NCBI GenBank assembly: GCA_025330725.1
Contig: JAIWND010000001.1
Coordinates: 1,116,001-1,180,000 of the forward strand
DNA from: Chlamydoabsidia padenii
Taxonomy: Eukaryota > Mucoromycota > Mucoromycetes > Mucorales > Cunninghamellaceae
Direction: 5' to 3'
Length of the DNA: 64,000 nt
Part shown: piece after piece, positions 36,790 to 39,090 of the stretch
Position numbering within the stretch: position 1 is the stretch's first letter
Layout of the letters: the number at the start of each line of letters is the position of its first letter
The notes under the pieces: generated by a model
Databases searched by the model: none
The model's input: only the letters and a program-made list of their open reading frames with translations
What the model was told of the DNA's origin: nothing
Made by a program: the position numbers and the translations under genes

Positions 36790-37431
36790 GTTTGAATATA
36801 GTGTAAAAAGAATGAAGGACAAGAAGATGACAGAAGAGAAAAAAAAGAGGGAAGAAATCAAAAAATCACAACATTTGCAATCCCGACATTTGAAATTCCG
36901 CCTCCCTTGAACTGCTTTTTGCTAAAGGGGATCCATCAGATGTGCCTCTAATTGATTACATTCTATATATAGATGGTTAGATAAAGGTATGCCTGTATAC
37001 TTTGTTAGCTGATTGCATGAGAATCGACACTATACGTGGACGCTTATTATATGATGTGATGAAATATTGATTCATTTCCCCTCCTATAGCACGCATAAAT
37101 GATAAAGGGATCCCCACCTAATACAAAAAACATCCGCAGTCTTGGTGCGTGGTTTAAAAATATTTTGACCTCCCTTTTTTCGTTGGAAAGAACATTTGTT
37201 CAATTTTGATTGGTTAATATTCATCAGCCCGATTTTTTTAAAACCTCACCCAGTTTCTCATTTTTTCACTTTTCCTTTTTCTTTAGACTTTCATTCTTTT
37301 TTAAAAACTCTTTTAACAAAACCTTGATCTATTTTCTTCCATTGGGTGGTGGTAATAGATCTGTTATTCTAGTTTTTATATATACATCTTTTGGTTTTTG
37401 TTATAAACACACACTTTTATTTGGCACTCAA
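36790..37431. promoter_or_regulatory. Divergent SLY1/HAC1 promoter
   Basis: 642 bp between the two start codons. On the SLY1 side are the half-sites AATCCCG (36879-36885) and TTTGAAATTCCGCC (36889-36902). A TACGTGGACG element near 37033-37042 contains the ACGTGG core seen in unfolded-protein-response elements. The HAC1 leader is T-rich and about 200 nt long. Confidence 0.5.
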
Positions 37432-38566
37432 ATGACTTGCAGTAATACTGATGCTTTGGCGGCCTTGTTGTCGTTACCTGTGGACTTTGCTATCGATCCT
37501 TTGGTGACACTACACTCCTCTTCCATTCCAAACTTGTTTCCTCTTACTTCTGATTTGACTCCTTATGAAGAAGACTCCAGCAGTACAGCAAGCTCATCTC
37601 CTTCTTTGGCCTCTTTATCAGATATTGGTACGACTTGCACCAATCAGCCCATCAAGAGCAAACCTGTGATCAAGAAATCAAGATTATCTTTGGAAGATAA
37701 AGATCAAAAGACAAAAGAAAGGTAAATATACATATATACATATACATAATAACATGTCATACAGTCATCTAATCACATCTACTTTAAATAGAATACTACG
37801 AAATCGTGCAGCTGCTCAAGAATCCCGCGATAAGAAACGACGTTATGTGGCTGATCTGGAAACCAGCAATCAACAATTAAGAACTGAAAACGAATCTATG
37901 AACAAACGAATCAAGCTATTGGAAACTCAAAACCAAACCATGTCCACACAATTATCCGACTTTGCTCGCCAAATCGCCGAATTACAACAACAACTTTTAT
38001 CCAGCAATTCAACGTCAACATCATCATCTGCAACATCTACTTCTTCTCTACTTGCTCATGGCTTTTGCGATTCAGCACGGATCGCGAAAAGTTTACTTTG
38101 TATCACTTCACATTACCTGTAGTCAACATCCAACCATACTCTACTCTCGTTATATATATATTTGCTTTTGTTATCAGTACAAAATCGTAATGGATGCTCT
38201 CAACCCTGGACCTCTCTTCAAACAAAACCCACCACCCAATGGAAATGAATGAAAATGGTTATAAATAACGATGTGTCCTCCCGTATGGATTGGTTGGTAT
38301 GACGACTCTTTTTTTATGTGTATGATCTAGTATTCTTTCTCCCTGCAGCGGAGGTCGTGAAACAAGTAATAGATCAAGAACAAATGGTGCAAGGTGATAT
38401 TTACAACAACAACAACAACAGTTTACTGCCTTCTCCGATGTTATCTCCTCATGTATCCTTGTCCTCCGATGATGAAACCGAAGTCAATGAACCTTTATCT
38501 CCTCCTCATCATATTGGATTCCAATTGGACGACTTCTTTGATTGGCAAGGTCAACAAACTGTGTGA
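37432..38566 (+). CDS. HAC1: HAC1/XBP1-type bZIP factor with unconventional IRE1 intron
   Basis: Exons 37432-37721 and 37792-38075 are joined by a normal GT-AG intron. The second part encodes the bZIP: KERILRNRAAAQESRDKKRR basic region (about residues 94-113) followed by Leu/Ile heptads to about 160. It matches Hac1/XBP1, including the NRxAAxxSRxKK core. Read on without further splicing, the frame stops at 38122 (206 residues). If the 270 nt between 38076 and 38345 are removed, the frame continues through 38346-38566 with AAEVVKQVIDQEQ and an acidic tail ending LDDFFDWQGQQTV, giving 264 residues. That tail (many Asp/Glu/aromatics) resembles an activation domain. The borders sit in hairpins that fit IRE1 sites (see separate entries). 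Role: master activator of ER chaperone genes. Confidence 0.85.
38063..38089 (+). promoter_or_regulatory. Candidate 5' IRE1 cleavage hairpin
   Basis: TTTTGCGATT pairs with GATCGCGAAA (10 bp, two G-U), leaving the 7-nt loop CAGCACG with G at position 3. IRE1 would cut after position 38075 (CAG|CACG). The usual sixth-position G is C here, but the loop size and cleaved G fit. Confidence 0.7.
38338..38354 (+). promoter_or_regulatory. Candidate 3' IRE1 cleavage hairpin
   Basis: CTCC pairs with GGAG around the 7-nt loop CTGCAGC (38343-38349), a full match to the CNG|CNGN loop consensus. Cleavage after 38345 yields exon 3 at 38346. CTGCAG would also pass as a spliceosomal acceptor, so the site alone is not proof. 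Confidence 0.7.
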
Positions 38567-39090
38567 TTGTGCTGCTATGATTAAATTTGTTTAGTAGTTT
38601 GGTTTTTATTTTATTTTATAGTCATATATCTTGGTTAGCTCTAGCTATAGTCATTTGTCCATATGTTTTTACTTCATCCATTGTTATTAGTTCCCCTTCT
38701 TTCCCGATCTTCATCATTCCACTAATGTCCTTTTTTTTTAACTTTATTCTATCTTTTTACTTAATAAAATCTTTCTATATCAGATCATTTATGCATTTGG
38801 ATCTTGTCTTCTTCTATACTACATAATCAACAAGGTTTTATGGTATAAATGATCTTTACTAACAGTAAATACATTACCCTGTATATAAATGCTATACTAA
38901 GACACATCATGTTAATCTATACTACTTGTATACTATTATGCCCACACCCATCCAAAGATTCCGGTCTTTTGCTTCTTGTTCCCAGTTAATAGTATATGAT
39001 AGGCGCAAAAGTATTCCATACGTTCTTCAGGTTCATATTAAGTACCTTCAAAAGGCACTACACCCCGAAAATTTTAAAACCTCTTACGCG
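38567..39090. other. 3' flank of HAC1 and intergenic DNA
   Basis: AT-rich 3' UTR and intergenic DNA with an AATAAAATC signal near 38763. No gene is supported. Confidence 0.5.

Follow-up and report, generated by a model that had tools for sequence, protein, structure and literature searches.

In Saccharomyces cerevisiae, HAC1 mRNA contains a 252-nt intron, which is cut at G661 and G913 and pairs through nucleotides 764 to 782 with positions -38 to -20 of the 5'UTR; 11 bp are enough for repression, and the 5'UTR arm is C-rich among the bases named in that account (PMC8881652). The block acts on initiation, with a degrading tail as back-up (PMC5114014). The HAC1 intron of Kluyveromyces lactis is 297 nt long, and pairing of +909 to +936 with -52 to -28 has been predicted (PMC6116095). 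In these accounts, the 5'UTR-intron mechanism is tied solely to long introns, those of S. cerevisiae and yeasts close to it (PMC6116095), and the association is called unique to the Saccharomyces clade (PMC8881652).

The HAC1-like gene of Chlamydoabsidia padenii (Mucorales, Cunninghamellaceae) considered here resembles S. cerevisiae HAC1 in encoding a bZIP factor, in hairpins of the IRE1 type, in its long intron (270 versus 252 nt) and in an intron arm complementary to the 5'UTR. With K. lactis, which belongs to the Saccharomycetes, it shares by description the long IRE1-type intron and a predicted 5'UTR complement. Unlike in S. cerevisiae, the 5'UTR arm is G-rich and lies at -95 to -80, its partner occupies intron positions 154-169, and the 5' loop deviates at position 6, all of this being known here from sequence. 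The new tail gained by splicing would have 72 residues, compared to 18 in S. cerevisiae.

In metazoan XBP1, two hairpins are combined with a frame switch and a short intron. Its loop shares the CTG/CAGC motif (slashes denote cuts), which reads CUG/CAG in mammals (PMC6037481), and its intron, given as 20 to 26 nt (PMC8881652), would be too short for a pairing arm. Among other fungi, HAC1 of Candida parapsilosis also has a long intron of the IRE1 type (626 nt), but unlike in C. padenii no 5'UTR pairing is described in the main text of the report (PMC6222058). HXL1 of Cryptococcus neoformans is, like the C. padenii gene, an IRE1-spliced bZIP gene with a C-terminal frame switch; its intron is short (56 nt), and no 5'UTR complement is reported for it, in contrast to C. 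padenii (PMC3154848). The same IRE1-dependent switch of the C-terminal frame is found in hacA/hac1 of filamentous ascomycetes, but with introns of about 20 to 23 nt (PMC4488935). Among the literature matches listed, judged by titles and beginnings of abstracts, none dealt with a HAC1 intron of Mucorales or its 5'UTR; the 2011 survey of Hooks and Griffiths-Jones may already list long Mucorales introns.

Structure of the HAC1-like gene

The window, that is the whole stretch of 64,000 nt of DNA that was analysed, belongs to contig C1 (2,477,794 bases) of the 34.2-Mb C. padenii assembly. Features of the locus are compiled in Table 1. The closest match is the public C. padenii protein P0001, which shows 99% identity to the unspliced product over the aligned part. 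Beyond the gene's own two matches, six other matches in the genome show 29 to 38% identity. Pfam searches with the gene product detected bZIP_1 (E=3.9e-10) and bZIP_2 (E=4.2e-10), both above the cut-offs. For the 5' coding part to join the bZIP exon, the ordinary intron between them must be excised.

Without further splicing, the bZIP frame had been proposed in a sequence-only reading of this DNA to stop at 38122, and removal of 270 nt to join it to a 73-codon acidic ORF. Both proposals agree with the frame analysis: excision of 38076-38345 yields an open frame of 264 codons versus 206 for the unspliced form. Exon 2 finishes one Ala codon and contributes 72 codons and a stop; the figure of 73 counts the completed Ala codon. 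Residues 1-192 are common to both products and are followed by a 14-residue tail (RIAKSLLCITSHYL) in the unspliced and by 72 residues in the spliced form.

Table 1. Features of the HAC1-like locus of C. padenii (positions refer to the window)
Feature	Position	Strand	Description and basis
5'UTR arm	37337..37352	+	TTCCATTGGGTGGTGG; -95 to -80 from ATG; perfectly complementary to the intron arm; presumably transcribed
Exon 1a	37432..37721	+	coding start of the HAC1-like gene, ATG at 37432; frame and homologues
Ordinary GT-AG intron	37722..37791	+	within the bZIP coding sequence; GTAAAT...TAG; joined frame KERILRNRAAAQ present in relatives
Exon 1b	37792..38075	+	bZIP basic region and zipper, ends at the predicted 5' IRE1 cut; Pfam and frame
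5' hairpin	38063..38089	+	loop CAG/CACG at 38073-38079, 10-bp stem (two G-U pairs); coding side conserved
Predicted IRE1-type intron	38076..38345	+	270 nt; frame restoration; exact junction in P0009 and P0011
Stop codon, unspliced frame	38120..38122	+	206-aa product; frame analysis
Intron arm	38229..38244	+	CCACCACCCAATGGAA; complements the 5'UTR arm; core CCACCCAATGG; intron positions 154-169
3' hairpin	38338..38354	+	loop CTG/CAGC at 38343-38349, 5-bp stem (one G-U pair); PAAE read across it in relatives
Exon 2	38346..38566	+	encodes the acidic C-terminus AEVVKQ...DDFFDWQGQQTV, followed by the stop; frame and exon-2 homologues

The predicted IRE1-type intron and its hairpins

The two hairpins with 7-nt loops claimed in the same reading were recovered with their coordinates, their loops and the 10-bp stem of the 5' hairpin. 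Their assignment to the IRE1 type applies to the 3' loop, CTGCAGC, but not fully to the 5' loop, CAGCACG. The motif of S. cerevisiae IRE1 is CNG/CNGN or CNG/ANGN (PMC6037481); the 3' loop is canonical in this respect, while the 5' loop, with C instead of G at position 6, falls outside a motif that is that of S. cerevisiae IRE1 and not of Mucorales. This deviation lowers the case for predicted IRE1 splicing, but does not end it. Candida glabrata, in which the hairpin structure was retained, the motifs were altered and IRE1 splicing was lost (PMC3561209), may be taken by analogy as a warning.

Both hairpins are present in the minimum-energy fold of the whole mRNA, the 5' one with a 5-nt loop. 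Hairpins with CNGCNNN loops and stems of at least 5 bp occur seven times on the plus strand and twice on the minus strand of the 64-kb window, and the stem of the 5' hairpin is the longest among these nine. A single hairpin of this kind is not rare; the weight of the pair comes from the frame switch and from conservation. By inspection, the predicted junction allows four registers, and GT-AG, GC-AG or AT-AC borders do not arise in any of them. In-frame GT-AG pairs can be drawn on paper and were rejected, fitting junctions and conservation poorly. A search of Rfam with the region 37100-38800 at E values up to 1 gave no match.

Conservation at the cut sites

One protein search with the bZIP gene yielded 58 homologues. 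Across the 5' cut, 43 of them read FC[DG]SARI, and the Arg of this motif means that position 6 of the 5' loop is C or A, never G. Two gene models, P0009 from Hesseltinella vesiculosa and P0011 from Mucor lusitanicus, contain FCDSAAEV, the exact predicted joined form (FCDSA/AEV). The remaining 13 homologues show neither sequence. They comprise, from Mucorales, P0016 (Apophysomyces) and P0037 (Rhizopus), which are modelled differently, and, from more distant sources, P0043 and P0046 (Endogonales), P0049 (Bifiguratus), P0052 (chytrid), P0053-P0057 (Mortierella and kin), P0051 and P0058. At the 5' cut, FRESAALA or FCQSAVLA replaces FC[DG]SARI in P0043, P0046 and P0053-P0056. The 5' cut site may have a different build outside Mucorales.

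Thirty-six homologues, selected as those ending in the unspliced form, were aligned to the window. SARI is invariant in these and mostly followed by AK, beyond which the tails diverge, as would be expected if the hairpin constrains the bases in question. For the 3' side, a search with an alignment of seven exon-2 sequences (A3), in which the 8000 candidates with the most words in common were scored, detected at least 42 proteins, P0037 and 41 new ones (P0059-P0099). PAAE[VA] is read across the 3' site in 33 of the 41 new exon-2 ORFs, though its Pro codon is intronic.

Public models of Mucorales HAC1 genes are inconsistent: they show unspliced ends, a separate exon-2 protein, apparent GT-AG joins or a partly translated intron (P0016). 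In Halteromyces radiatus, the bZIP part (P0002) and exon 2 (P0090) are modelled as two proteins, and M. lusitanicus has, besides P0011, a model of the unspliced form (P0023) and another of exon 2 by itself (P0074). A search with residues 155-285 of P0016 retrieved P0016 itself as the sole match.

IRE1-type RNase and RNA-ligase domains in the genome

An IRE1-type RNase domain is encoded on contig C56 of the C. padenii genome. When it was compared with solved structures, IRE1 proteins matched best, with 2rio in first place. When kinase and sensor parts were sought with a 400-residue piece of this locus, no Pfam match was obtained at 1e-3. The RNA-ligase domain PF09511 was detected at two loci, C17:329380-330120 and C12:840249-840970. 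The arrangement suggests a segmental duplication of the ligase loci. Zn2Cys6-like reading frames, alike by eye, are located upstream of both. A search for PF08302 gave no match and likewise none in the controls, so it was uninformative.

With hairpins, frame switch, intron length of 270 nt, acidic exon 2, conserved cut sites and both enzyme domains, the HAC1/XBP1 logic that had been recognised from the letters of the sequence gains support, and 38076-38345 is very probably an intron of the IRE1 type.

Complementarity between 5'UTR and intron

Not mentioned in the sequence-only reading was a perfect complementarity of 16 nt between 37337-37352, upstream of the start codon, and 38229-38244 within the intron. 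The longest complement in 400 dinucleotide shuffles was 12 nt. Among 400 real pairs of regions with the same spacing from the window, two reached 16 nt, both of which may be the site itself. With an approximate stacking table, the gap-free helix has an energy of -35.2 kcal/mol, compared to a mean of -17.2 (s.d. 3.1), and was matched by 10 of 1500 placements, all ten containing the site. ViennaRNA gave -30.1 kcal/mol for the hybrid of the arms and costs of 6.7 and 3.2 for opening them, which leaves about -20 kcal/mol net as a local estimate. The length of 16 bp exceeds the 11-bp threshold for an attenuator of the yeast type (PMC8881652). The earlier hope that a long intron in this lineage would be evolutionarily informative gains weight because the 5'UTR complement is present.

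Other calculations did not indicate pairing. The minimum-energy folds of the whole mRNA, computed for three assumed starts (1241-1321 nt), contain none of the 16 arm pairs; with two of the starts, the energy penalty for imposing all 16 is 17.6 or 19.3 kcal/mol. Such folds exclude pseudoknots and ignore translation and proteins; their outcomes are kept here as negative results. Duplex energies over the full length of both regions did not set this pair apart, 928 of 1000 pairs with the same spacing being as low or lower, in a measure that permits endless interior loops in A+T-rich sequence. Taken alone, it gives the pairing no support.

The 14-mer CCACCACCCAATGG occurs four times in the genome, in both arms and in two copies within a duplicated stretch on contig C5. 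The latter are located at 278506-278519 and 322933-322946, in repeats 44 kb apart that share 97% identity over about 1.2 kb and otherwise show no notable similarity to the HAC1 region.

The arms in related fungi

A homologous HAC1 locus in relatives was not confirmed in two scans of viral contigs and one scan of genome contigs. The public exon-2 proteins are informative in another way: their ORFs extend upstream into the intron, and their residues constrain its bases. The set consisted of P0059-P0099 and P0016 (42 proteins), 32 of which were usable, with 15 or more residues ahead of PAAE or, failing this, of the PSP motif. The 11-nt core CCACCCAATGG is admitted by ten of the 32 ORFs (P0016, P0059, P0066, P0074, P0075, P0077, P0081, P0089, P0093 and P0094), in frames 0, 1 and 2, as opposed to at most four for any of 2000 permuted motifs. 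The ten are partly dependent, exon 2 being identical in P0077 and P0081, 94% identical in P0059 and P0074 and 78% in P0093 and P0094. Named sources among them are M. lusitanicus (P0074) and Apophysomyces ossiformis (P0016), and exon 2 of P0077 and P0081 matches Rhizopus arrhizus P0037 at 96%. The ORFs that did not match include five consisting of exon 2 only, without PAAE, and several possibly starting downstream of the arm.

A variant with one base changed, CCACCCAGTGG, is admitted by P0079 and P0080, and also by P0077 and P0066. Among the Rhizopus-like ORFs, the A form alone fits P0081, the G form (CCACCCAGTGG) alone fits P0079 and P0080, and either fits P0077; P0076 spans the position of the arm, yet contains neither form and thus no core. 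The distance from the end of the core to the 3' cut is 48 to 130 nt in the nine matches with a readable cut, and 103 nt in C. padenii. The Apophysomyces intron would measure 155 nt, if the gene model is continuous there. Met-Glu starts were noted in 11 of 41 exon-2 proteins, ten of these being ORFs with PAAE, which would follow if gene callers had taken the ATGGAA within the arm as a start. Judged by these reading frames, the intron arm is conserved in several Mucorales.

As to the 5'UTR arm, CCATTGGGTGG is admitted by only one member of the set of 58 bZIP homologues, P0047, in a stretch ahead of its likely start (LLHWVGTM). Permuted motifs fit this stretch alone in 18 of 20000 cases; with all 58 N-terminal parts, 237 of 2000 match at least one protein. 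Most other bZIP models begin at the start codon and are silent on the 5'UTR. One relative may carry the 5'UTR arm, as a single, weak case.

Proposed function of the intron and alternative explanations

The gene of C. padenii is rather likely to be a HAC1/XBP1 orthologue spliced by IRE1 and provided with a yeast-like brake between 5'UTR and intron, by which one intron would exert two levels of control. In the unspliced mRNA, a helix between 16 nt of the intron and 16 nt of the 5'UTR would impede the loading of ribosomes and keep the output of the short unspliced bZIP protein low. Upon ER stress, IRE1 would cut after G38075 in one hairpin loop and after G38345 in the other, and the exons would then be joined by an RNA ligase. 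Splicing would remove the partner of the 5'UTR arm and at the same time exchange the 14-residue tail for the acidic tail of 72 residues. This scheme, in which we infer cleavage, ligation, transcription of the 5'UTR arm, helix formation in cells and translational repression, builds on what the sequence contains: the frame, the hairpins, the complementarity, two conserved cut-site regions, a conserved intron arm, and genes for an IRE1-type RNase and RNA ligase. That the brake is a working one in C. padenii is a matter of judgement, and we consider it fairly likely.

In the most serious alternative, HAC1 is spliced by IRE1 as well, but the intron arm does other work, such as protein binding, mRNA localisation or docking of IRE1, and its complement in the 5'UTR is due to chance or secondary. 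Support for the intron arm from several relatives, compared to support for the 5'UTR arm from this species and perhaps P0047 only, would agree with such a role, as would the whole-mRNA fold without the helix. It would leave to coincidence a perfect 16-nt complement in the right place, far beyond the shuffles and the helix null, whose 14-mer is found elsewhere in the genome only in one duplicated stretch. We regard this explanation as unlikely, though still worth serious attention.

A spliceosomal intron, with a donor at 38091 (GTTTAC) and an acceptor at 38348 (CTGCAG), could join the frames independently of IRE1. This pair keeps the frame, the 3' end of the intron is pyrimidine-rich and ends in CAG, and a GT-AG intron of this kind would account for the sequence SARIAKKE(S/A)E(V/A) in the models P0012-P0014. 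The junction in P0009 and P0011, however, is of the IRE1 type and obtainable from no GT-AG pair here. By a crude measure, an intron-like pattern comes after GTTTAC in one of 37 cases in the window, versus nine of 62 for GTAAGT; a CTRAY motif is absent between 38091 and 38348, and the two hairpins would be left unexplained. Spliceosomal removal is accordingly improbable. Least probable is that both arms are DNA elements, transcription-factor sites of the CCAAT-box type, and not RNA partners: CCACCCAATGG contains CCAAT, a copy of which precedes the gene at a possible place for a promoter box, but a 5-bp box cannot account for 16 complementary bases, the conserved 11-nt core within the intron of relatives is left unexplained, and no CCACG was seen by eye at the set spacing from CCAAT that defines the mammalian ERSE.

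Evolutionary implications

Returning to the IRE1-spliced HAC1 gene with a 5'UTR-intron brake as the preferred reading, the G-rich 5'UTR arm, compared to the C-rich arm of yeast, makes a separate origin likelier, and the brake probably arose independently of that in yeast. We lean somewhat towards a yeast-like HAC1 brake throughout Mucorales, that is outside Dikarya, either of independent origin or as an ancient fungal feature lost where the intron shrank. If this is true, a link between IRE1 splicing and relief of a translational block has arisen two or more times in evolution, or its age has been greatly underestimated. Public gene models in which the HAC1 gene is split or misjoined would be corrected as well, and the contrast between long HAC1 introns and those of only about 20 nt would find an explanation: long IRE1 introns would be long because a pairing arm must fit in.
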